A stretch of DNA of 40,707 bases from Promethearchaeota archaeon (GTDB lineage: Archaea > Asgardarchaeota > Lokiarchaeia > Sigyniarchaeales > SOKP01), in the NCBI GenBank assembly GCA_019894715.1, contig JAGXOA010000214.1, positions 1 through 40,707 on the forward strand, in the 5' to 3' direction. A program made the position numbers and the translations under genes. This document shows, in pieces, positions 5,304 to 40,195 of this stretch. The notes beneath the pieces are model-generated. The model was given only the letters and a program-made list of their open reading frames with translations, ran no database searches and had not been told where the DNA came from. Within the stretch, counting starts at the first letter, position 1, and each line of letters begins with the position of its first letter.

Positions 5304-5459
5304 CTACGAGTGCACAATCGCTTCTAGTACGGATTGGTTTGTATATCTTAGAAAACCATCCCAATGTGATAGGAATGATTCCTCGTTCACAGAGGATTGA
5401 CTTCCACAGTCATATTGTTCCTTCGAAGGATTTATCCTGATCTTTTGCGTGAGCTTCAT
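5304..5459 (-). pseudogene. TnpB remnant: N-terminus fused to C-terminus by deletion
   Basis: The 51-residue frame starts MKLTQKIRINPSKEQYD, a typical TnpB N-terminus that is also preserved at 31760. It then jumps to CGSQSSVNEESFL and ends ALRYTNQ-like (LRYTNQSVLEAIVHS), resembling TnpB C-terminal tails. About 350 residues, including the RuvC nuclease and zinc finger, are missing. The frame happens to stay open across the junction. It cannot be an active nuclease. Confidence 0.8.
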
Positions 5460-5528
5460 TACTATAATAAGAGAATATGAATAGAGAAAAAGGGGGAGGG
5501 TGTGGTGGTTTACCTGTTTTTTTACCAT

Positions 5529-5570
5529 GCTCAAGAAGACCCCTCCCTAAAGGGAGGGGTCTTCTTGAGC
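5529..5570. repeat. Perfect 19-bp-arm inverted repeat (left-end hairpin)
   Basis: The left arm begins GCTCAAGAAGACCCC and its exact complement ends CTTCTTGAGC, with a TAAA loop. In the copies at 134 and 31830 the outer and inner arms still pair but a stretch between them does not. This copy is therefore the best preserved, or has been homogenised. It is the likely recognition hairpin for a TnpA-type transposase. Confidence 0.9.
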
Positions 5571-5630
5571 GATTATGATAAAAACTTAGATATATAACAA
5601 AAAAATAAAGAATATTTAAATTCCTCGATA

Positions 5631-10733: not shown

Positions 10734-12638
10734 ATGCAAAAATCAAAAAAACATCAAAATCACAATATTGCTGTACAATTCAATAGAAATTTCTCTAAAT
10801 TAGAAGAATTAATTAAAACTAATCAAAAAAAAGAAATTCAAAATGAATTATCTAATTTAGACATCATTGATATTGAAAGGACTTTTCTAGATTCATACTT
10901 AAAACGAAGAAATGAGGGAGTTTATTTCACAAGTGATAAAATAGCTAGATTTATTGTAGAAAAGTCACTGTTGTCATTAATAAACAATGAAATGGGATTT
11001 GATTTAAAAACTCTTTCTCAAATAAATGATCTTGAAACAAATGCAAAAAAAAAAATTGTAAATATTCTAAAAGAAATATCCATTTGTGATCCTGCCTGTG
11101 GTTCAGGTGTTTTTCTCTATAATGCAATGATTATACTCTATGATATTCTAAAGAAATTAGTTCCTAATCATTCTGTTTTAGATCTAAAAACTTCAATAAT
11201 AATAAATACGTTTGGTCTTGATATTAATTCACTATCTCTAAATTTATGCAAATTAAAGATATATAAATGGGTCCTAAATGAGAATTCCATAGATAACATT
11301 AATTTATTTAATAATATAAATCACAATTTTAGAGAAATAAATAGTTTAACAGTTGTTAATTGGCCAAAAACTATATTTAATAAAAATCATTTTAATTTAA
11401 TTATTGGAAATCCTCCCTATGGTAATATTTTAAATAATAATGAAAAAAGAATTCTAAAAAATGAAAAGATTTTCTCTAAAGATATTTATTGTACATATTT
11501 ATTAAAATCATTACAATGGTCAAGCGGTATAATCGGTTTTCTGGTACCAAAAAGCTTTCTTTTAAGGCAATCATTTATAGATTTGAGAAATGAATTATTT
11601 TCCAAGGCGGATATTTTAGAGATACATGATATTGGACCTAATTTATTTAAAAAAGCTACAAATGAAGTTCAAATTATAATATATAAAAATAAAAATGACC
11701 AAAATAAGGAACTTAAGATATTTAATTATCCTAACATAAAAATTAATCAGTATTCTGATCAGTCTTTTGATTTTCTTAGAATTTGTATAAATATTAAATG
11801 CCAAATGAATGTAAAATCGAAAAAGTTTTTTATTTATACATTTAAAGAACAATGTCCCTATTGTAATCTAAAAACTCAAAAACTAAATAGAATTAGGATA
11901 AAATGTGATAAAGAAACCCTTAAAATTATAGATAAAATAGAATCACTTGGAGATATTAATTATCTAAATATAAAACAATTTCCAAATTTTATAAGAGGAG
12001 AAGAGGCAAAAGGATTAAAAGAAATTAGAAAATTATTAGAGAAAAATAACGAAGGTACATGTTTTTTTGTTAATGCTAAGCAAGATTTTTCTCAATATCA
12101 TTTTAAAAAGAAGAAAATGTTCTATTTGGAAAAAATAAATCCAGCAATCCTAAAGGGAAGAAAATATGAGTTTTACCAAAAACCAAAATTATTAATTAAA
12201 CATAATAACATATATCCAGAAGCTATTTTTACAAAATATCCAACTTGCTTTACATCTTCAATATATTCATTGCTTTATTTTGATGAAATTGAGTTAAAAC
12301 ATCTATGTGCTATGCTAAATTCGATTATTATTCAATTTTATTGTATATATGGTATAAATAACCAAAAGGGTACAACAATTAATTTAAATCAGTATATGAT
12401 TCGACATTTACCAATTGTTAAAATACAAGATAAAGAAAAAAAGATACTCTCAGAAAAAGTTGATTTTATTACAAATCAACTAGAGTTTAATAATGGGGAA
12501 TTAAATAAATCAATTAAACAAAGTATTGTTGATATTAATGACATAATTTTTGAATATTTCTCTATTGAAGATAGAGAACGTGAATTAATGATAAATAAAG
12601 TTAAGGAATTTAATAAATATTATAATCTAATCTATTAG
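10734..12638 (+). CDS. Adenine-N6 DNA methyltransferase (TaqI/Eco57I-like)
   Basis: A 634-residue gamma-class methyltransferase. Motif X is RNEGVYFTSDKIARFIVEK (59-77), motif I CDPACGSG (118-125), motif II GLDIN (161-165) and motif IV NPPY (226-229), followed by GIIGFLVPKSFLL. It transfers a methyl group from S-adenosylmethionine to adenine N6. The C-terminal 300 residues are the presumed target-recognition region, with a CPYC knuckle near 372-375. No PD-(D/E)xK nuclease is visible at the N-terminus or in the adjacent genes. It thus looks like a solitary methyltransferase or one whose partner lies elsewhere. The recognition site cannot be read from sequence. Confidence 0.9.
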   Translation: MQKSKKHQNHNIAVQFNRNFSKLEELIKTNQKKEIQNELSNLDIIDIERTFLDSYLKRRNEGVYFTSDKIARFIVEKSLLSLINNEMGFDLKTLSQINDLETNAKKKIVNILKEISICDPACGSGVFLYNAMIILYDILKKLVPNHSVLDLKTSIIINTFGLDINSLSLNLCKLKIYKWVLNENSIDNINLFNNINHNFREINSLTVVNWPKTIFNKNHFNLIIGNPPYGNILNNNEKRILKNEKIFSKDIYCTYLLKSLQWSSGIIGFLVPKSFLLRQSFIDLRNELFSKADILEIHDIGPNLFKKATNEVQIIIYKNKNDQNKELKIFNYPNIKINQYSDQSFDFLRICINIKCQMNVKSKKFFIYTFKEQCPYCNLKTQKLNRIRIKCDKETLKIIDKIESLGDINYLNIKQFPNFIRGEEAKGLKEIRKLLEKNNEGTCFFVNAKQDFSQYHFKKKKMFYLEKINPAILKGRKYEFYQKPKLLIKHNNIYPEAIFTKYPTCFTSSIYSLLYFDEIELKHLCAMLNSIIIQFYCIYGINNQKGTTINLNQYMIRHLPIVKIQDKEKKILSEKVDFITNQLEFNNGELNKSIKQSIVDINDIIFEYFSIEDRERELMINKVKEFNKYYNLIY

Positions 12639-31571: not shown

Positions 31572-31760
31572 TCAAATTAGATAATAATAAAAAATTACAA
31601 ATTCTTCTTTAAAATAATATATTCTTTTGTTTTGATGCCAATTTTCTATTCGCTCAGCTAACGCAAAATTATACAAGAGACGACATTTCTCAGATAATAC
31701 CCAGAACAAGTGTTCTTATTCCTTCGAAGGATTTATCCTAATCTTTTGCGTGAGCTTCAT
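31572..31760 (-). pseudogene. tnpB 5' fragment with in-frame stop
   Basis: Starts MKLTQKIRINPSKE, has TAA at codon 15 where the related copy has CAA (Gln), then continues in frame with EHLFWVLSEKCRLLYNFALA and ERIENWHQNKR, the standard TnpB N-terminal domain. Recognisable similarity ends near 31610; the remaining frame is AT-rich filler. The RuvC domain is absent, so it is inactive. Confidence 0.88.
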
Positions 31761-31829
31761 TACTATAATTAGAGAGTATGAATAGAGAAAAAGTGGGAGG
31801 GTGTGATGGTTTACCAATTTTTTTACTAT

Positions 31830-31871
31830 GCTCAATTCATCCCCTCCCTAAAGGGAGGGGTCTTCTTGAGC
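31830..31871. repeat. Left-end hairpin of TnpB-element copy 3
   Basis: Outer arms GCTCAA and TTGAGC and inner arms CCCCTCCC and GGGAGGGG pair around TAAA, with a 5-by-5 internal mismatch. It is the same position and fold as at 134-173 and 5529-5570. Confidence 0.85.
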
Positions 31872-31983
31872 AATTATGATAAAGTCTTTTTCATCAAAAA
31901 GTATGATTCTAAATTTTTATATTACAATTATGTTATTATTAGTATAAAGGAAAAGGAATTTATCTTTAAAGAGGAATGATAGT

Positions 31984-33780
31984 ATTTCTGCAATTAATCT
32001 GAATAAAATAAAGGAAGATATAACATCTGGAAATTATGAAAAAGCTTTAGACAACTTAATTTCATTAATTAATGATGATAATTCTTTAATCTTAAAAGAT
32101 ATTTTAGAAGGAATTCAAGAAATTCAAAATAAGGGCAATTTTTTATCAAAAGAACACTTAGAAAAGATTAAACCATTAATCGATTCTTATGATGAAAATG
32201 TACAAGAATTATCAATCAAATTGTATATTAACGCAATAAATAACAATTTTAACCTTATTAATAAAGAGTTTAATTACATATTATCAAGATTAAGTCATTT
32301 TGAGCAAATAGTTAGGGAAAAATTTATTATTTTTCTTATTAATATCTTTGGTAAAAATCCTGATTTTGAAAAAAAAATAATCATTGGTCTGATAGGATGT
32401 TTAAAGGACGAATTTTGGAATATAAGAATTCGGATTATGGAATTTTTTAATAATATTATCGATAAAAGATCTAAATTTTTTAAAGATTTTGATAAGGAAC
32501 TTATAATTCTATTAGAAGAAGAGGATCTTGACGTCAAATGGGAGACTTTGGAATTTCTATTTAAATATATTATCGAAATGTATTCAATTAATGAAATTAA
32601 AGAATTAATAAACTCAATAAGAAATAACAATTGGGTAGTACAAGAAAATATTATATTTTTGATTAGTAGGATTGGGATAAAGGAGAAAAATTTAATTAAA
32701 CCTATAACTAAAGATATCATATTATTTCTTGATCATGATGACTTTCTTGTAAATAAAGCTATTTTTAATTCAATTAAAGAGATCATGGAATATCATGTAG
32801 ATCTATTTGATGAAGCTTTTTTTTTCTATTTAAATGATGATGAATTTGATAATTTAGAAGCAATCGAAAATCTTTTAAAATTTTCAATTAACAAACATGG
32901 TTTTTTAAGATTTTATTATTTATTTATGACAATTACGCTTATAAATATTCAAATTACAGTTACTTTCACAAATATTGTTAAAAAATTATATTTAGAAAAT
33001 CCTAAATTTGTTGAATCCCTATTTTCGCAGTTAGGTAAAATTGTTTTAAATAAAATTGATATGAATATTTACACAAAAATGAGAATGTTTTTAAAAGCAG
33101 TTCCAAAATATCATATTTATTTGGATATATATCATACAGTAAATGAATTAGAAAAATTTGAGGATTTTGAAGCAGATTCTTTGAGAAAAGAATTGTTAAC
33201 TTTTCTAAGTGAGATGATACCTGAATTAGATTATGTAAATCTAAGTGAATGGTTGTCATTAGAATTAAAAAAGAGAGAAATTCATATAGATGAGATATGT
33301 TCCAAATATAACATTCATAGATCTAAAATTATGGATATTTTGTTAATGCTGTTGAATAAGAAGATGATTGAAGCAAATATTTCTAATAATATTGTAATGT
33401 CAATCAAACATATAAAAAAACCAAAAGATGACTTATTATTCCAAAAACAATGGAAATACATTCATAAATCTAAGCATTTCCAATCTGTAATTACATTATT
33501 TATACAAATCAAAAATATATCCACAGATAAAATTATAAACTTAAATATAATTTTAGATTATCCCAAAGATTTATTTATAAAAGGAAGATCTGATTCTAAA
33601 ATGGATAATATCCCAAAAATATTAAACCCCGGTCAAAATGTTATACTTAATTGGAATTTTCTGAAACATTTTGATGAAAGTTCTGGAATCATCTCTAGAA
33701 GACTAATTATTATTGCTCTTTATAAAAAATTTAATAGAATTTTCACAATAAAAAAGGAATTAGAAATATTGTTAATATAA
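31984..33780 (+). CDS. HEAT-solenoid protein with wHTH and beta-sandwich C-terminus (ATT start)
   Basis: A 598-residue protein. Residues 1-360 are HEAT-like helical repeats (VREKFIIFLINIFG, IRIRIMEFFNNII, VKWETLEFLFKYI). A winged-helix-like segment follows at about 420-475 (SLELKKREIHIDEICSKYNI). The last 110 residues form a beta-sandwich (FQSVITLFIQIKNISTDKII, LNPGQNVILNWNF). This order loosely recalls vesicle-coat adaptins with an ear domain; that is inference. The first 79 codons, after a TAA at 31945, contain no ATG, GTG or TTG, yet read as continuous helical protein. AGG lies 9 nt before ATT 31984, the chosen start. TTG 32221 would cut off two repeats. Confidence 0.75.
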   Translation: MSAINLNKIKEDITSGNYEKALDNLISLINDDNSLILKDILEGIQEIQNKGNFLSKEHLEKIKPLIDSYDENVQELSIKLYINAINNNFNLINKEFNYILSRLSHFEQIVREKFIIFLINIFGKNPDFEKKIIIGLIGCLKDEFWNIRIRIMEFFNNIIDKRSKFFKDFDKELIILLEEEDLDVKWETLEFLFKYIIEMYSINEIKELINSIRNNNWVVQENIIFLISRIGIKEKNLIKPITKDIILFLDHDDFLVNKAIFNSIKEIMEYHVDLFDEAFFFYLNDDEFDNLEAIENLLKFSINKHGFLRFYYLFMTITLINIQITVTFTNIVKKLYLENPKFVESLFSQLGKIVLNKIDMNIYTKMRMFLKAVPKYHIYLDIYHTVNELEKFEDFEADSLRKELLTFLSEMIPELDYVNLSEWLSLELKKREIHIDEICSKYNIHRSKIMDILLMLLNKKMIEANISNNIVMSIKHIKKPKDDLLFQKQWKYIHKSKHFQSVITLFIQIKNISTDKIINLNIILDYPKDLFIKGRSDSKMDNIPKILNPGQNVILNWNFLKHFDESSGIISRRLIIIALYKKFNRIFTIKKELEILLI

Positions 33781-33794
33781 TTAGTATTATATAT

Positions 33795-35483
33795 CTAGAG
33801 ATTGACTCCATCCATTAGATCTATTCTTCCACTTTTATCATCTTCAGCTTTTGGATCCGGAAATGCAATATAAACCCATTTAATCATATCTTGAAGTGTA
33901 TAATGACCATCCCAAGGCATTCCTATTGATTGAATATTATGTTCTCCAATTCTAGGGAATCTATTTGCTCCTAATAATGATAATTCTTCAGATACATCTT
34001 TAACAAAATCATCTGAACCATAAATAGATACCGTTTGTAGATATTGTTGTAATTTTTCTTTTCTTATAGAATATATTAACTCCTGTATATTAGAAATTCT
34101 TGTTACTACAACAAAACGATCTTGGCACATGTCTACTTCCATCATGGAAGGTAAATCTCGTAAATAAATAACAGTCCAATCTAATTTTTCTTTAGTAGGA
34201 AAATAAAGAGTTGCTCTTTTTTTAAAAGCATATTTCGTAAGGAAATATTCTCGTTTTTTATTCGTTTGTAATCCATCTGCTTGAGTTAGATGACTACGGG
34301 GTAGTTTAATGTCTGCTTCTTTTAATCCTTCTGCTAGTAATTTAGCAAATCCTTTTGTTGATAAATCGGATATTTCGTTTTTAAGTAATTTCATAGAACG
34401 TTGCATCTGTGTAACAAGATTATTAGAATCTGAATTTTCAAAGATATCATTACCATTACTATGTAATAATTTTTCAATTTGAGAAAAATCATCTAATTCT
34501 CCGTTTAAATTTTGTAATGATTGTCCATTAATTTCCCTAATATCAATTTTTTGAGGTTTTTCTACGATATATATAATTCTTGGGCTTAAACATGCTTTTT
34601 GATTCCAATAGACTAAATCTAATGCAATTTTATTAGCAGCATCTATCATTTGATCTCTATTTTTGAATATATCATCTGAAATAACACTAAAAGAAAGCTT
34701 AGGGCCATGATCAATTATTTTTATCCCAAATCGATTTGCTCTTTTTCTTATATCTTCAATTGATTGTATCCCTCCCCAAGCTAAAACACAATCAACATAT
34801 CCTGAATTAAATAATTCATTATAAATATCTACTTGGCTTCCTTTCCAATAGATTGCAGCTATTTCCTTTGCTATTTTTTTATCAATATCAAGGATTGATT
34901 CACATAATCTAATTAGAAAATAAGGTTCTCCATGAGACAGTTTGATTAGATTTACATTTTTAGTTATAAGTCCAAAATATAAAGTTAATAAACCTAGATT
35001 AAAAGCATTACCGGCTAGATTATGAAAAACTAATCCCCTAGGTTGAGCATGGATTCTAGTATTACCTTTGGGAATCCAATCCTCTAAATACTTTTTACCT
35101 CCAATTTCTCCAAGTAATTGAGCTTCTGCAACTTTTTTATCACACAACATAAGGGTTGCCATAAGTTCAATTTCTATTAATTTTTTTGATTGACCTGTTA
35201 TCATTGGGAGGACGTCTAATGCTTCTTTTCGAAGATCATAAAAAGGATCACGCCAAAGAGAACCCAATTGATCAATAAAATCTAAAACATCATCAATATC
35301 TCTGTCATGAGCTCTTCTTTTTTTTAAAGCTATTGTTTGTGCTGTTTTTAAAACTTGACTTTTATTAAATACAGGAAATTCAATTTCTAAAACATCATCT
35401 TGACGTTTAATTTCTTCCTTTGTTGTATTTTCCGAGAAAATAGATTTAAAAATAAAACCTGGAAGATTAATTTTTTTTTTCAT
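33795..35483 (-). CDS. luxC: LuxC-like acyl-CoA (fatty-acyl) reductase
   Basis: An aldehyde-dehydrogenase-fold reductase of the LuxC family that reduces an activated acyl group to the aldehyde with NADPH. The central GLVFHNLAGNAFNLGLLTLY and KLSHGEPYFLIRLCES, and the catalytic cysteine in YWNQKACLSPR (about 300), are clear. At 562 residues it is longer than bacterial LuxC (about 480), with an extra N-terminal region of some 100 residues. It follows the LuxE-like gene by 85 nt on the same strand. In luminous bacteria LuxC, LuxD and LuxE make the luciferase aldehyde; no luciferase is seen here, so the aldehyde has another use. Confidence 0.88.
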   Translation of the reverse strand: MKKKINLPGFIFKSIFSENTTKEEIKRQDDVLEIEFPVFNKSQVLKTAQTIALKKRRAHDRDIDDVLDFIDQLGSLWRDPFYDLRKEALDVLPMITGQSKKLIEIELMATLMLCDKKVAEAQLLGEIGGKKYLEDWIPKGNTRIHAQPRGLVFHNLAGNAFNLGLLTLYFGLITKNVNLIKLSHGEPYFLIRLCESILDIDKKIAKEIAAIYWKGSQVDIYNELFNSGYVDCVLAWGGIQSIEDIRKRANRFGIKIIDHGPKLSFSVISDDIFKNRDQMIDAANKIALDLVYWNQKACLSPRIIYIVEKPQKIDIREINGQSLQNLNGELDDFSQIEKLLHSNGNDIFENSDSNNLVTQMQRSMKLLKNEISDLSTKGFAKLLAEGLKEADIKLPRSHLTQADGLQTNKKREYFLTKYAFKKRATLYFPTKEKLDWTVIYLRDLPSMMEVDMCQDRFVVVTRISNIQELIYSIRKEKLQQYLQTVSIYGSDDFVKDVSEELSLLGANRFPRIGEHNIQSIGMPWDGHYTLQDMIKWVYIAFPDPKAEDDKSGRIDLMDGVNL

Positions 35484-35568
35484 ATTATGTTAATAAAAAA
35501 AATAAGATATAATTATTTTTAGTAAGAAAAAAAAATTAATAATTTAAAAAAAAATTTAAAATATTTTA

Positions 35569-36756
35569 TTATTCTACGTCAGTCTCTTGTTCTAATTGAG
35601 CACCACATCCTCTAGCTTCTGCTCCTTCAGCTCTACCTAAAACTTCAATGACTTTTCCTTTCCTTCCACAAGGACAATCATCTTCCATAACAATCCTTAC
35701 AATATCATCTTGTAAAATTGAAACACCAGCATAACTATAAGCAATAGGATTAATTACATTGTTAAGTCCCTTTTCTCCAATTTCTACGGGTTCTAAAGTT
35801 TCAACATCTCTAACAACAATATCTTGCCATGGAAGAAGATGTTTATTATGATATTCACACTCAGCATGAACACAATCGGTTTCAGTAAAACTGTATACAT
35901 CTAAAATTTGTTGTTGAGGAATACCTAAAATCTTTGTCATATCTTCTCTAAATTGAACAGGTGATACAGCTTCTCCTGAAAAGGATTTCCATCCTCCTCC
36001 TGAAACAAATACAGTGTTTTCTCCTACATTAAATCCTTGTCCAGTTTTTTCAAAATATCCTTTTAATGTTCCATATATTAATGGAATGGCTCCGCCAATC
36101 CATCCAATTCCTTTTTCTGCAGGATTCGCCTTTAGGAAGCCAAAAGTAGTTTGTTCATCAAATTCAAATAATTTACCTTTTTTTCTTGATTCTTCATCAG
36201 CGAATTTTAAAGCATAATATCTCTTTTCCATAGGAAGTTTATTTGCAACATTAAAGATATAACCCATATGATTTTGAGGATGAGCTACTTTTTCATCTCT
36301 TGCTAAAACTTTTTGAGGTTTTGGTTGAAAGAATAAAGACCAATTATAATCTTTTAAACTACATATTTCCCCAAGAACAAATTCAAACATTTTAAAAAAT
36401 CTATCTAAATTTGTTTTATCTCTTCCAACGAGGGAAGGATCACCAGATGTACCACTTGACATTGTCCAAGCTAAAATTTCATTTTCTGGAACACATAATA
36501 AATCCTTAGGTCTACCAGATTTTCGCTTAAAATTCGCCGTTGTTAAATAGGGTATTTTATCGATATCTTCTAAAGATTTTATGTCTTCTTGAGGATTAAA
36601 ATTCTTCTGTCGGCAGAATTTACGATAAAAATTACATTTTTCAAATTGATGGCGTGCCGTTTCCAATATTGCATTAAATCTTTCTTTTTCTACCTTACTT
36701 TGATCATTATCATATAAAAGTTCCTTTCCTCTATTCAATAATTTATCAATTATCAT
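35569..36756 (-). CDS. luxE: LuxE-like acyl-protein synthetase
   Basis: An ATP-dependent acyl-activating enzyme of the LuxE/PaaK-like group. The phosphate loop TMSSGTSGDPSLVG is at about 95, with VFVSGGGWKSFSGEAVSPVQ and VYSFTETDCVHAECEY downstream. The C-terminus has a CPCGRKGKVIEVLGRAEG turn. It likely activates a fatty acid as acyl-AMP and hands it to the LuxC partner encoded next. At 395 residues it is of normal length. AGG lies 7 nt before the ATG. A gap of 186 nt separates it from the FIST gene, so it may have its own promoter. Confidence 0.87.
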   Translation of the reverse strand: MIIDKLLNRGKELLYDNDQSKVEKERFNAILETARHQFEKCNFYRKFCRQKNFNPQEDIKSLEDIDKIPYLTTANFKRKSGRPKDLLCVPENEILAWTMSSGTSGDPSLVGRDKTNLDRFFKMFEFVLGEICSLKDYNWSLFFQPKPQKVLARDEKVAHPQNHMGYIFNVANKLPMEKRYYALKFADEESRKKGKLFEFDEQTTFGFLKANPAEKGIGWIGGAIPLIYGTLKGYFEKTGQGFNVGENTVFVSGGGWKSFSGEAVSPVQFREDMTKILGIPQQQILDVYSFTETDCVHAECEYHNKHLLPWQDIVVRDVETLEPVEIGEKGLNNVINPIAYSYAGVSILQDDIVRIVMEDDCPCGRKGKVIEVLGRAEGAEARGCGAQLEQETDVE

Positions 36757-36942
36757 TTTGCTACCTTAAAGTATATTTTTATCCATTTGGTGATAATTAT
36801 TATTTTAATATTTTTCGAAAAAGATAAAATGAGTATTTAATAGAAATAAAATTGTTTAAAGTTATTTTTTTTAATTAAAGTTCCTCTAATCAAAGGAAAA
36901 AATAAAAAAAGATATAACAAATTTTTTTTATATTAAATTAAA

Positions 36943-38259
36943 TTAATCTCCACCAGCTAAAGTTACATATGTCACATTATTAAAATACCAATCAATATCT
37001 TTAGTTCCGTAAATTTCACCACCAGAACCAATTATCATTCGAGGAATATCTTTTCCGATAGTATCGTCAATAGTTTTTATTATTTTTGGAAAATTATCTC
37101 CATATGCAATAAATCTAATTGCACAATCTATCCCCAATAAAAATTTGGGATTTGAAATATTTTCTAAAGCTTGATTTATAGATTTTTCTGCTGTCTTATG
37201 GAGTATGTTCATATTACTCTGAAAAATATCTATTTTATTTGGAACACGATCGAATGGAAATCCAGTATTAATAAGACTTTCAAGTTCAGGATTAGTAATT
37301 GTAGCTGTTAAATGTATATATTCCTTACCTTTTATTAATTCTTTAGTTCCAAATATTAAATAATAGTTTAAATAATTAGAAGATTTTAATTCATATAAGG
37401 ATTCCTTTTGAATTCCAGCAGCCGAGCATAATCCTAATAAAGCTGGTTTTCCATCTACTCTTAAAATAAAATTTCCTATATTTTTTGTAGGTTTACAACT
37501 ATATCCTGTATATTCAGCACCCGCAGCAAATCCAATACCAAATTTTGTTGAATTTTGTCCTGATAATATTGCACCAAGAACTCTATCTGTTCCAACTTCA
37601 TCATTATAGAATTCTTCAGAATCATAATCTCTTATATTAGTTGCAACATTTCCAATCACAGGAATATCCCATCCTTTGGAGAAAAGAATTTCAAGTAATT
37701 CTTGTACTGTAGGCATTCCCAATCCATTTTCTTTAAATTCTTCTAGTTGTCTTTTAAAAAATCTATTAATTAATCCTGAAAACAATGACACTACACGACT
37801 ATTAAGAGAATTCTGCTTTGCTAATACCTCAGGAGGAAATTTCATTCCATCTTGGAACATTAACATTATACGATTATTATTAGGATCTAAGTTCTTTCCT
37901 TTTTCATATATTTTTTCTGCAATAGTCTCATATTCCATTCTTGAATTACCATAATTGTAAGATGAATCAATAGAAATATCACCACCTAACAACATCAGAC
38001 CAACACTTCTTAATGCAAATCGATCTTTTACTAATATCCCATTAACTGTACTGCCAATTAAAGTAATATCTGGACCTAATACTTCATATACGCCTCTAAT
38101 AACTTCTTTATTATTGAAATGTCTTCTAGTGAGAGAATCTATAGCTAAAATAGCTAATTTAGGTTTAAGTTTCATTCCTCCTAATGCTTCATTAGCTACT
38201 TTTTTTCCAGCCAAATAACTATCCCTTTCTGTTGTGATTGCTACATTTGCGTCTAACAT
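36943..38259 (-). CDS. FIST-domain sensor protein
   Basis: A 438-residue protein with FIST-N (about 20-230; LKPKLAILAIDSL, EVLGPDITLIGSTVNGIL, VGLMLLGGDISI) and FIST-C (about 250-438; FILRVDGKPALLGLCSAAG, and IIGSGGEIYGTKDIDWYFNN at the end). FIST domains are thought to bind small ligands and usually feed signalling modules. There is no attached kinase, cyclase or chemoreceptor domain, so output must go through another protein. The roadblock and gelsolin-like genes just upstream on the strand are candidates. AGG lies 10 nt before the ATG. Confidence 0.88.
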   Translation of the reverse strand: MLDANVAITTERDSYLAGKKVANEALGGMKLKPKLAILAIDSLTRRHFNNKEVIRGVYEVLGPDITLIGSTVNGILVKDRFALRSVGLMLLGGDISIDSSYNYGNSRMEYETIAEKIYEKGKNLDPNNNRIMLMFQDGMKFPPEVLAKQNSLNSRVVSLFSGLINRFFKRQLEEFKENGLGMPTVQELLEILFSKGWDIPVIGNVATNIRDYDSEEFYNDEVGTDRVLGAILSGQNSTKFGIGFAAGAEYTGYSCKPTKNIGNFILRVDGKPALLGLCSAAGIQKESLYELKSSNYLNYYLIFGTKELIKGKEYIHLTATITNPELESLINTGFPFDRVPNKIDIFQSNMNILHKTAEKSINQALENISNPKFLLGIDCAIRFIAYGDNFPKIIKTIDDTIGKDIPRMIIGSGGEIYGTKDIDWYFNNVTYVTLAGGD

Positions 38260-38330
38260 AAATATTAATCCTCAAGATTATAATTATTATATATTAAAAT
38301 ATTATTACATTTTACAAAATAACTCATTAT

Positions 38331-38840
38331 TTAAATCTGTGATAAGAATTTATTGATTTTTTCCCTCATTTTTCCAAGATCTAAAGATAATTCTTTTAAA
38401 ATTGAAGTTACTTTTTGTATAGAGATCATATTATCGGTTTCTTTTGGTATTTTTATTGGTTCTGAATGGACTTCTTCAATAATGATATCTTCTGCTTTTG
38501 ATATTTTTTCAATAATATCATCTGATAAATAATATTCTCCTTCTTCAATTGGTTTCATAATTCGATCCTTTGATATTTTTGGAAATTGTTTTGGTTCATT
38601 TCCACTATCAACAACTTCTATACTCGCACCATAAAGTTTTTCTTTAGATTTTATTCTCGTTGCTGATACTCCAGCAAAATATTTATCTAACATATTTGAA
38701 TCAGGACCACTCCAAATCCAGATTTTTGATCTTTTTCTTCGATGTTTTTCTATTATAATATAGATCTTATCACTTTCAAAGGGTGCTTCTTCAACGGGAA
38801 TTATTTCTTTATTTTCAACTTTATATAAAATTAAACTAAT
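38331..38840 (-). CDS. Gelsolin-like domain protein (ATT start)
   Basis: The first 95 residues form one gelsolin-homology domain: YIIIEKHRRKRSKIWIWSGP, then DKYFAGVSATRIKSKEKLYG and a closing EVVDSGNEPKQFPKI, matching the family pattern of VxIWxG, a long helix and a final GxEPxxF. Gelsolin proteins bind and sever actin; Asgard archaea have actins and gelsolin-like regulators. The last 70 residues are a charged linker and a helix (SILKELSLDLGKMREKINK). The GTG at 38849 lies inside the Shine-Dalgarno AGAGGTGA. ATT 38840, 8 nt after AGG, gives MSLILYKVENKEI, as for uS4 where the true ATG follows a GTG in the same way. Confidence 0.75.
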   Translation of the reverse strand: MSLILYKVENKEIIPVEEAPFESDKIYIIIEKHRRKRSKIWIWSGPDSNMLDKYFAGVSATRIKSKEKLYGASIEVVDSGNEPKQFPKISKDRIMKPIEEGEYYLSDDIIEKISKAEDIIIEEVHSEPIKIPKETDNMISIQKVTSILKELSLDLGKMREKINKFLSQI

Positions 38841-38851
38841 ATTCTTCACCT

Positions 38852-39787
38852 CTAAAATTTAATAATTCGATTGGCCCAATTGTCTATTTTTTCTTGATAA
38901 GTTTTAATATCTTTAATTTTTAATTTATCAGAATATTTACTAAGCTCAGTAGAATTTCTTGATAAATCAAAAAGAGCTAATGATGTTCCTATATTTTCTA
39001 AAATAGCATCTTTTAATAGATTAAGAATTTCGGAGATATCTTTACCATTAAGGTTCTCCAATTCTTTTTTTATTATATCAAATATATCCTTTATGATCCC
39101 ATTTTTCTCAACTTGATTACTTCCTTCTAAAGAATCTATCATTGATTTAATCATATTTTGAATCGATTTTAAGGGTTTTACGGCGGTATCAATAGGTTTT
39201 GTTTTTGAAGATTCAGTTTCTATTGGAAGTGGAATTGGTGTTTCAATTATATTTGGTATAGGTTTAGTGATTTTATCTGGAACTGAGATAGATTCAGAGG
39301 ACTCAGTAATAATTCCTTTTGATTTAGATAAAACAGGAACAATCTCTTTTTCAGGAATCTCTAATTTTTCACCCAAGATACCAAAATCCTTAGGAGGAAT
39401 TTTTAGAATATTATCTCCTAATTCTTTAATTCTTTCTCTAACTCGCTTTAGTATATCGATCATAGCTAATTTTAAATATGAGATATTTGTTTCATATGAG
39501 GTTATAGCGATCAATACTAAATGTGGAGGTATATTATAAAGAAAAATATACCCTTTATCACCTTCCAACATTAATTCTGAAAGGTTTCCATGATTAATTT
39601 CATCTGCAAATTGTTGAAAAGTCTCTTTTAAAACACATATTTCCCATAAAATGTCTTTTTGTACATTAAATGGAATAGTTGATTCGATTAAGGAATTATT
39701 TTCAACATTAATAAAATAACAACCATTAAAATCAGTTATATATTCAATTTCATTTAAAATTTGTAATAATTCTATCTTTTCATCCAA
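38852..39787 (-). CDS. Roadblock/LC7-domain protein with helical C-terminus
   Basis: Residues 1-125 form a roadblock-like alpha/beta domain (ILNEIEYITDFNGCYFINVE, GYIFLYNIPPHLVLIAITSY, then the helix LAMIDILKRVRERIKEL). A Pro/Thr/Ser-rich linker (about 150-210) and a C-terminal helical domain of about 100 residues follow. Roadblock proteins bind small GTPases or act as scaffolds, as in the Ragulator and MglA/MglB systems. It starts at TTG 39787, 3 nt after the previous stop, and ends 11 nt before the gelsolin-like start, so the three genes are one operon. Confidence 0.72.
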   Translation of the reverse strand: MDEKIELLQILNEIEYITDFNGCYFINVENNSLIESTIPFNVQKDILWEICVLKETFQQFADEINHGNLSELMLEGDKGYIFLYNIPPHLVLIAITSYETNISYLKLAMIDILKRVRERIKELGDNILKIPPKDFGILGEKLEIPEKEIVPVLSKSKGIITESSESISVPDKITKPIPNIIETPIPLPIETESSKTKPIDTAVKPLKSIQNMIKSMIDSLEGSNQVEKNGIIKDIFDIIKKELENLNGKDISEILNLLKDAILENIGTSLALFDLSRNSTELSKYSDKLKIKDIKTYQEKIDNWANRIIKF

Positions 39788-39790
39788 TTC

Positions 39791-40195
39791 TTAGACTTCA
39801 CCTGTAAAATTATAATTCTTTAATAAATCTTTTATTTTTAAACTAAGATTTGTAATCCCAAATGCAACTCTTAAGAGATCTGCTTCTCCTTCAATGATAG
39901 TAGTTAAGATTGCATTATCTCCCGCATTTTGAATTATCGCTCTTCCATACTCACTACTCATAGATAATCTTCTAAGGTTTCCTTTATTTAACCGAAGACA
40001 CAAATTTTGAAAGGTTAATTTCACAGCTGCAGATAATGCGCCTATTAAAATGGGATTTATTTTTCCTTTCCATGTATTTGCTATAGGAACTCCTATTGGA
40101 AAAGAAATAACAATTTGACCTTGAACATCATCTTGTGAATCCGTAAATTCCTTAATTAATTCACTTAATTTTGAGATAATCTTATTCTTAACCAA
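39791..40195 (-). CDS. Roadblock/LC7-domain protein
   Basis: A 134-residue single-domain protein. The pattern GQIVISFPIGVPIANTWKGK, a long helix (NPILIGALSAAVKLTFQNLC) and GDNAILTTIIEGEADLLRVA is typical of archaeal roadblock proteins that dimerise across a shared sheet. It likely pairs with the roadblock domain encoded next and with a small GTPase. The start is TTG 40195, because the frame is closed by TGA two codons earlier. No ribosome binding site is seen, as expected for a leaderless first gene. It is the first gene of the minus-strand run down to 33795. Confidence 0.82.
   Translation of the reverse strand: MVKNKIISKLSELIKEFTDSQDDVQGQIVISFPIGVPIANTWKGKINPILIGALSAAVKLTFQNLCLRLNKGNLRRLSMSSEYGRAIIQNAGDNAILTTIIEGEADLLRVAFGITNLSLKIKDLLKNYNFTGEV

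Follow-up and report, generated by a model that had tools for sequence, protein, structure and literature searches.

Among described systems, those closest to the locus considered here include the LuxC-LuxE fatty acid reductase of luminous bacteria, proteins containing a FIST domain and the roadblock pairs of small GTPase platforms. To our knowledge, no native ligand has been assigned to Cys326 of the FIST domain of human FBXO22, a residue now used for targeted protein degradation. The same cysteine reacts with alkyl aldehydes to yield a hemithioacetal (PMC11208438; PMC13316043). The FIST protein NosP, in turn, binds heme, senses NO and regulates a kinase (PMC12570481), and the ped cluster of Pseudomonas, which serves the oxidation of alcohols and aldehydes, contains a NosP-type gene together with that of its kinase (PMC12997753). 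In MK-D1, GTPase and roadblock genes seldom share an operon (PMC10933270).

The DNA analyzed here, termed the window, is a stretch of 40,707 nucleotides from a lokiarchaeal genome (assembly GCA_019894715.1, contig JAGXOA010000214.1). Six ORFs on its minus strand form a single co-directional run encoding, in order, two roadblock-type proteins (Rb1 and Rb2), a gelsolin-domain protein (Gel), a FIST protein, LuxE and LuxC, with gaps of 3, 2, 71, 186 and 85 nt separating successive genes. Both the coordinates and the spacing reported in a preliminary description of this DNA were recovered.

The distribution of these genes was considered in a set of 228 Asgard genomes. Orthologs of the FIST protein (E<1e-190) were found in only eight of these, each of which also encodes LuxC at E<1e-240, such that the genomes with the FIST ortholog are the very ones with the closest LuxC. 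Seven are Lokiarchaeota, the genome of the window being among them, and one is a member of the Helarchaeota; the FIST ortholog is restricted to genomes carrying the cluster. The preliminary description had proposed a search for conserved adjacency in Asgard genomes, and the same genes indeed recur together in seven other genomes, with the coincidence of FIST and the closest LuxC in all eight showing that relatives share the association. Chance adjacency is excluded by this phylum-wide pattern of co-occurrence, and the six genes form a truly conserved unit, not being merely adjacent.

The cluster is contiguous in seven of the eight genomes and is divided by an assembly gap in the eighth. In G013, it is found on two contigs, the ends of which adjoin FIST and LuxC, and in G005, the contig terminates within Rb2. 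Four copies contain the complete set of six genes. Gelsolin is missing from the G048 cluster, as well as from that of G054, where the gene order is FIST-LuxE-LuxC-Rb1-Rb2. FIST, LuxE and LuxC, adjacent and in this order in the clusters of Lokiarchaeota and Helarchaeota alike, comprise the invariant core of the cluster and its tightest section (gaps of 36 and 63 nt in G054), and Rb1 and Rb2 are present in every cluster where the sequence extends far enough. In G001, from the same genus as the window, the contig matches the window to ~28.6 kb, then diverges and ends; presence in one and absence from the other are clear, and no clean empty-site junction was seen in this contig. No relatives of FIST were found in viral contigs and plasmids. 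In a single scan of genome contigs bearing on the occurrence of FIST beside LuxE and LuxC, all of the records returned were from Asgard archaea. Ratios of dN/dS were low, values made unreliable by synonymous sites being near or at saturation. As a separate observation, G048 contains a second locus of the order LuxE-LuxC-HEAT, the LuxC and LuxE of which are 89-90% identical to those of G023, from another family; this could reflect transfer or contamination of the bin.

The list of genes in the preliminary description proved to be one short. A gene encoding a HEAT-repeat protein of ~598 aa with a C-terminal beta-sandwich (31984-33780, plus strand) is convergent to LuxC, with 14 nt between the two stop codons; as the ORF finder places the start at 32221, the start codon of the ~598-aa frame is provisional. 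This gene is the convergent neighbor of LuxC at all seven lokiarchaeal loci where the sequence extends to it and, between genera, is the only flanking gene common at the same position, the other flanks being different. Among the 228 genomes, HEAT orthologs at E<1e-240 were found solely at these loci, with the next best match being at 2.5e-16. The HEAT gene is the seventh member of the block. Its AF2 model (pLDDT 85) corresponds to a generic HEAT solenoid. Assignment as a coat or adaptor protein was considered and rejected, since COPI and AP were matched no better than were Integrator, CAND1 and karyopherins (TM ~0.2-0.3), making the fold result a generic one.

The enzymes of the core were next compared with the solved LuxC-LuxE complex (PDB 7xc6). 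LuxC (33795-35483; 562 aa), an acyl-protein/acyl-CoA reductase by family, matches the Pfam LuxC family at E=9e-78, and its profile matches LuxC of the complex at 1e-42, with the cysteine of the QxAC motif aligned. This residue, Cys298 (WNQKACLSPR), is invariant in ten homologs. LuxE (35569-36756; 395 aa), assigned as an acyl-protein synthetase, matches Pfam LuxE at E=1e-46 and LuxE of the complex at 4e-40, with the C-terminal GC motif aligned; the SSGTSGDPS motif and Cys384 are kept in all copies of the cluster. These alignments indicate that both catalytic cysteines of the complex, corresponding to LuxC Cys298 and LuxE Cys384, are retained, in each case in all copies of the cluster, and together the pair is expected to convert an acid into an aldehyde. 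The NCBIfam equivalog cut-offs are far from being reached (148 of 750 bits for LuxC and 104 of 550 for LuxE), and LuxE also matches PaaK and FlxY, although more weakly. Given these weaker matches, the substrate of LuxE could be acids other than long-chain fatty acids.

The FIST protein (36943-38259; 438 aa) contains Pfam FIST_N (3e-11) and FIST_C (2e-6). When its AF2 model (pLDDT 92.9) was used in a fold search of the PDB, the four best matches were all human FBXO22 (E 5e-9 to 2e-8); global superposition of the model with FBXO22 is poor (TM 0.41-0.54, rmsd 9-12 Å). Cys379 is invariant in 18 Asgard FIST proteins and occupies position 92 of the FIST_C profile, the same position as FBXO22 Cys326, in a gapless alignment. 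A sequence search of the PDB with the FIST profiles returned nothing, the link to FBXO22 being that provided by the fold search and by Pfam position mapping, and a shuffle test of the C-terminal FIST profile against the FBXO22 fragment was marginal, with 371 of 20,000 shuffles scoring higher. On the basis of this mapping, Cys379 is the equivalent of FBXO22 Cys326. As the latter is reactive with aldehydes, the earlier suggestion that FIST senses an aldehyde, here that made by LuxE and LuxC, is a serious one, with the presence of the homologous cysteine speaking for it and aldehyde binding itself being what we infer. The equivalent cysteine is also kept in Asgard FIST proteins without adjoining LuxC or LuxE, so that Cys379 is not specific to a locus-made aldehyde and may instead be structural. 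In other proteins, FIST serves as an input domain, as in the control of a kinase by NosP and in an Asgard fusion of FIST with PAS, GAF and HATPase domains.

Rb1 (39791-40195; 134 aa, TTG start) and Rb2 (38852-39787) match Pfam Robl_LC7 weakly (E=0.05 and 9e-4, respectively), and their family profiles match one another (hhalign probability 94%, 115 columns). Rb1 is 37-60% identical to its orthologs in six other clusters and ~30% identical to a roadblock paralog present in all 58 genomes searched. Rb2, orthologs of which were likewise found in the other clusters, comprises a roadblock domain (residues ~1-130), a linker and a conserved helical C-terminal domain (~200-311) that recurs in unrelated Asgard proteins of 600-800 aa. 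The cluster itself contains no GTPase gene. The preliminary description had included a GTPase/actin-type module and had suggested the GTPase encoded at 1238-1801 as a possible roadblock partner; that partner was dropped, as no homolog flanks any other copy of the cluster. The more general link to a GTPase is supported by operons of other Asgard families (f15/f18; L179, L186), in which genes for KaiC, a roadblock-type protein, FIST and a Ras-like GTPase recur together. Considering the rarity of operons shared by GTPase and roadblock genes in MK-D1 (PMC10933270), both these operons and the present block are unusual.

Gel (38331-38849), composed of one gelsolin domain (residues ~15-92) and a conserved C-terminal helix, matches Pfam Gelsolin at E=8.5e-5, with the best PDB match being 2DGel3 (7c2h; 6e-11 over residues 41-96). 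Present in six clusters, gelsolin is an accessory component. Its absence from two of the eight (G048 and G054) argues against counting an actin output among the core features, and the case for actin coupling is weak.

Taken together, the conservation of the module, its intact catalytic residues, the FIST fold and the FBXO22-equivalent cysteine, all of them shown by sequence, are consistent with the locus being a module of some Lokiarchaeia and Helarchaeia that makes, reads and relays an aldehyde, by means of LuxE-LuxC, FIST and the roadblock proteins acting on a GTPase. We assign this reading a probability of about 40%. LuxE would activate a carboxylic acid in an ATP-dependent manner and hold it as a thioester, and LuxC would accept the acyl group on Cys298 and reduce it to the aldehyde. 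FIST would then reversibly bind the aldehyde (or the acyl group) at Cys379 and change state, with a roadblock heterodimer relaying the change to a Ras/Rag-like GTPase whose gene lies outside the cluster. The core of the module is FIST, LuxE, LuxC and the roadblock pair; the lokiarchaeal versions add gelsolin and HEAT proteins, which would serve as a scaffold or as effectors. The substrate, the direction of signaling, the coupling to a GTPase and any effect on actin are likewise presumed. The complete chain, from a self-made lipid-type aldehyde through covalent readout by the FIST cysteine to small GTPases and, in some Lokiarchaeota, to gelsolin and the cytoskeleton, is possible but rather unlikely.

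A real if tentative contender is a metabolic complex, in which FIST, as a third enzyme subunit, keeps or passes on the acyl or aldehyde intermediate at Cys379, taking the position of LuxD in the lux operon, with roadblock, gelsolin and HEAT proteins serving only to organize the complex and the product entering lipid or alcohol synthesis. The tight FIST-LuxE-LuxC section in both lineages favors such an arrangement, as does the lack of a LuxD-like gene in the cluster neighborhoods, judged from the families scanned. Against this, we know of no FIST enzyme, characterized FIST domains such as those of NosP and FBXO22 are sensors or ligand-binding adaptors, and two roadblock proteins accompany the core wherever the sequence extends to them. 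Reversal of the flow, with FIST sensing another signal (NO via heme, an amino acid or redox state) and controlling LuxE/LuxC output through the roadblock proteins, is unlikely: NosP provides a precedent for heme binding and NO sensing, yet its partners, a histidine kinase and a response regulator, are missing from the cluster, and the counterpart of the aldehyde-reactive cysteine is retained. More improbable still is aldehyde clearance, with LuxC, an aldehyde-dehydrogenase-like reductase, running in reverse, or the pair handling external aldehydes, and FIST acting as an alarm that controls the response. The NosP-type gene of the Pseudomonas ped cluster fits this idea, but the presence next to LuxC of a LuxE that uses ATP favors acid reduction over aldehyde oxidation.

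The caution voiced in the preliminary description as to separate transcription units was fair. On the coding strand, the FIST-LuxE gap contains T7 and T6 runs and the LuxE-LuxC gap T9, T9 and T8 runs, which would allow for separate transcripts, and the Gel-FIST gap contains no run of at least five T. That the genes are unrelated neighbors with no joint function, as these T-run-containing 186- and 85-nt gaps might suggest, has nonetheless a negligible chance of being correct, given clustering maintained across two Asgard classes despite changed flanks and the fact that FIST and the closest LuxC co-occur without exception.

Were the aldehyde-relay reading true, roadblock and gelsolin proteins, considered "eukaryotic signature" proteins of Asgard archaea, would gain a concrete metabolic input, and a testable class of natural ligands for FIST domains would be named. 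If the readout is, moreover, covalent, aldehyde reading would be an ancestral property of FIST, which would explain the reactivity of FBXO22 Cys326 with aldehydes. Even without the mechanism, a block of seven genes kept together across Lokiarchaeota and Helarchaeota indicates a joint function.

A description of acid-to-aldehyde enzymes joined to FIST and roadblock proteins was not found in the open-access literature, in agreement with the preliminary description, which had noted no described system with this gene set. As such, the cluster may represent an undescribed aldehyde-signaling system of a few Asgard archaea. Like the NosP-NosK/NahK systems of NO sensing, it encodes a free-standing FIST beside candidate output partners; membership in that group was rejected since the block lacks a kinase partner, with neither a histidine kinase (every copy of the seven-gene block lacks one) nor a response regulator being present and the partners instead being roadblock-type. 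The putative pair of related roadblock proteins would recall the heterodimeric platforms of MglA-MglB and Ragulator-Rag, whereas here the cluster is without a GTPase gene and the pair is joined to FIST and LuxE/LuxC. The Asgard f15/f18 operons (L179, L186) also encode FIST beside a roadblock-type protein, but include KaiC and a Ras-like GTPase and are without LuxE, LuxC, gelsolin and HEAT. Human FBXO22 shares the FIST fold and a cysteine at the position of Cys379, yet acts in an F-box/ubiquitin ligase context, in place of which is found an archaeal operon with predicted aldehyde-making enzymes. Finally, the locus shares with the fatty acid reductase of luminous bacteria adjoining LuxE and LuxC homologs and both acyl-carrying cysteines; in place of LuxA/B or LuxD, which are absent from the families named in the window and in the cluster neighborhoods, the pair is here adjoined by FIST, roadblock, gelsolin and HEAT genes.

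Examination of the minus strand of the window, contig C231 of an Asgard genome assembly of 3.36 Mb in 288 contigs, revealed six ORFs at the positions assigned in the preliminary description (33795-40195), separated, as described there, by 3, 2, 71, 186 and 85 nt. These encode a roadblock pair (Rb1 and Rb2), a gelsolin-like protein (Gel), FIST, LuxE and LuxC. Pfam confirmed the identities proposed for LuxC, LuxE, FIST and gelsolin, the top PDB matches of the last being Asgard 2DGel3 structures. For the two roadblock proteins, Pfam alone returned weak scores, yet comparison of the Rb1 and Rb2 family profiles gave a mutual match spanning 115 columns, at 94% probability. The C-terminal helical domain of Rb2 (38852-39190) also terminates unrelated Asgard proteins of 600-800 aa (loci L190:1840-3777 and L192:258-2654), with its carriers including a TrmB-type protein encoded in the same genome. 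Directly upstream of the cluster lies a DUF285 (BspA-like repeat) protein truncated at the contig end (40363-40707).

Each cluster protein was used as query in searches of 58 relatives, while FIST, LuxC and HEAT-repeat protein profiles were run against 228 Asgard genomes. Conserved adjacency of the six families, earlier proposed as a check, was borne out, with the same genes recurring together. FIST orthologs (E < 1e-190) were present in only eight of the 228 genomes, namely, the Lokiarchaeota bins Zod_Metabat.1389, EB_bin_12, LW60_5, YT6_002, BC1 and Bin_342, the Helarchaeota bin LW55_61 and the window's own genome, which belongs to the same family as five of the Lokiarchaeota bins; the next FISTs, from other clades, scored ~1e-40. 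LuxC at E < 1e-240 was found in the same eight, followed by genomes G038 (1e-138) and G115 (1e-123). The nearest outside relatives of the cluster enzymes are LuxE-LuxC pairs in these two genomes (L149:9964-12566 and L222:4688-6809, respectively), in the fetched neighbourhoods of which the FIST profile found no match.

The full order Rb1-Rb2-Gel-FIST-LuxE-LuxC is seen in the window and in genomes G035, G017 and G023. In G005, Rb2 through LuxC are present, with Rb2 cut by the contig end. In G013, Rb1-Rb2-Gel-FIST reach one contig end and LuxC and the HEAT gene end another, an assembly break in which LuxE would sit. Because gelsolin is missing from G048 and from the Helarchaeota copy (G054; order FIST-LuxE-LuxC-Rb1-Rb2), the invariant core comprises FIST, LuxE, LuxC and the roadblock pair. 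Cluster flanks vary from genus to genus, being common to G017 and G023, members of one genus, which argues for linkage kept by selection rather than merely inherited gene order. FIST, LuxE and LuxC were not found in G001, a 99% complete genome of the same genus as the window, the syntenic contig of which diverges from the window at ~28.6 kb; given this patchy presence, gain or loss affects the module as a block. Contig C684 of G048 (L144) carries a second LuxE-LuxC-HEAT locus, truncated by the contig end, whose LuxC and LuxE share 89-90% identity with those of G023, a member of another family, reflecting either recent transfer or bin contamination.

The HEAT-repeat gene (31984-33780), which adds a seventh member to the block, is convergent to LuxC, with 14 nt separating the stop codons; it extends beyond the ORF finder start at 32221, and its 5' boundary is provisional. 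Among the 228 genomes, orthologs at E < 1e-240 were confined to six cluster loci and the second G048 locus, the best match elsewhere being 2.5e-16. In the structural model, an alpha solenoid leads into a beta sandwich at the C-terminus, and the PDB matches were to generic HEAT proteins. The gene ahead of FIST in the Helarchaeota copy encodes a HEAT-type protein of another kind (Adaptin_N, E=5e-5). Immediately upstream of the window's own HEAT gene is a dispersed repeat of ~262 bp (31622-31884; partial copy at 5415-5582) with ~40 matches in the genome, the longest ~90% identical and many at contig ends, which probably breaks the assembly. Elsewhere in the window, where no Rfam families were found, an Eco57I/TaqI-type DNA methyltransferase weakly similar to BREX PglX (10734-12638) is apparently solitary.

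The caution that the larger gaps leave room for separate transcripts is reasonable. The FIST-LuxE and LuxE-LuxC gaps (36 and 63 nt in G054) contain T-runs of 6-9, which may or may not act as terminators in an AT-rich archaeon. The 71-nt gap before FIST contains no T-run of five or more and, with Rb1, Rb2 and Gel nearly contiguous, these three genes and FIST are probably co-transcribed.

LuxE and LuxC profiles matched the solved LuxC-LuxE complex 7xc6 (E=4e-40 and 1e-42, respectively). As LuxC Cys298 and LuxE Cys384 align on the matching cysteines of 7xc6 and are kept in all copies, conversion of an unspecified acid to aldehyde is expected. When the confident AF2 model of FIST (pLDDT 92.9, pTM 0.92) was compared with the PDB, the four best hits were all FBXO22 structures (E=5e-9 to 2e-8; probability 1.00), global TM-scores being 0.41-0.54 despite the strong E-values. 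In this human F-box protein, alkyl aldehydes adduct the FIST cysteine Cys326 (PMC11208438), with a hemithioacetal there being supported by cryo-EM (PMC13316043). A 47-residue FBXO22 fragment, identical letter for letter to the PDB sequence, the numbering of which gives C326, and the corresponding window fragment were scanned separately; FBXO22 Cys326 and window Cys379 both fell, gaplessly, on Pfam FIST_C profile position 92, as did Helarchaeota Cys375. Across 18 diverse Asgard FISTs, only seven columns never vary, Cys379 being one of them. Two caveats apply: our own FIST profile recognized the FBXO22 fragment only marginally (371 of 20,000 shuffles scored higher), and the cysteine is also kept in Asgard FISTs with no adjoining LuxE/LuxC.

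Sequences and their comparison show the module, catalytic residues that are preserved, the fold of FIST and its FBXO22-equivalent cysteine. In the proposed mechanism, LuxE and LuxC would generate an aldehyde, FIST would capture it at Cys379 and the roadblock pair would relay the signal to a GTPase in trans, with gelsolin and the HEAT protein possibly serving as scaffold or effectors in the Lokiarchaeota versions. We assign this whole chain a probability of roughly 40%. That FIST instead acts as an enzymatic carrier inside a reductase complex, the main rival, appears rather unlikely.

The individual parts belong to known families, although their combination is, to our knowledge, undescribed. 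Consistent with the earlier statement that no such system was known to its author, none was found in the open-access literature, nor was LuxC named together with Lokiarchaea, or Asgard with FIST and small GTPases. Asgard, roadblock, gelsolin and gene cluster occur together in a single paper of that literature, PMC11291895. The function of the combination is putative.

The sensory role proposed for FIST can be compared with other Asgard loci. In families f15 and f20, operons run from a KaiC-type ATPase through a roadblock-type protein and FIST to a Ras-like GTPase (L179:8208-11461; also L180-L183 and L188); in f18, the Ras-like GTPase comes first, ahead of KaiC, a small protein and FIST (L186:8640-11858; also L184 and L185), with the small protein matching the f15 roadblock-type protein at 98% probability. 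These operons represent a second conserved Asgard FIST system, one without LuxE/LuxC. Genome G195 has a FIST joined to PAS, GAF and HATPase domains within one protein; at L187:8356-12303, a 1315-aa FIST_N/FIST_C/PAS/GAF/HATPase protein, with a Ras-like GTPase gene nearby, is a predicted FIST-headed sensor kinase. Given the operons and the G195 fusion, FIST is a recurrent input module, often with roadblock-type neighbours. Whereas the f15, f18 and f20 operons encode a Ras-like GTPase, the cluster studied here offers a roadblock pair and no GTPase gene; with FBXO22, it shares a common FIST fold, in which Cys379 holds the place of Cys326.
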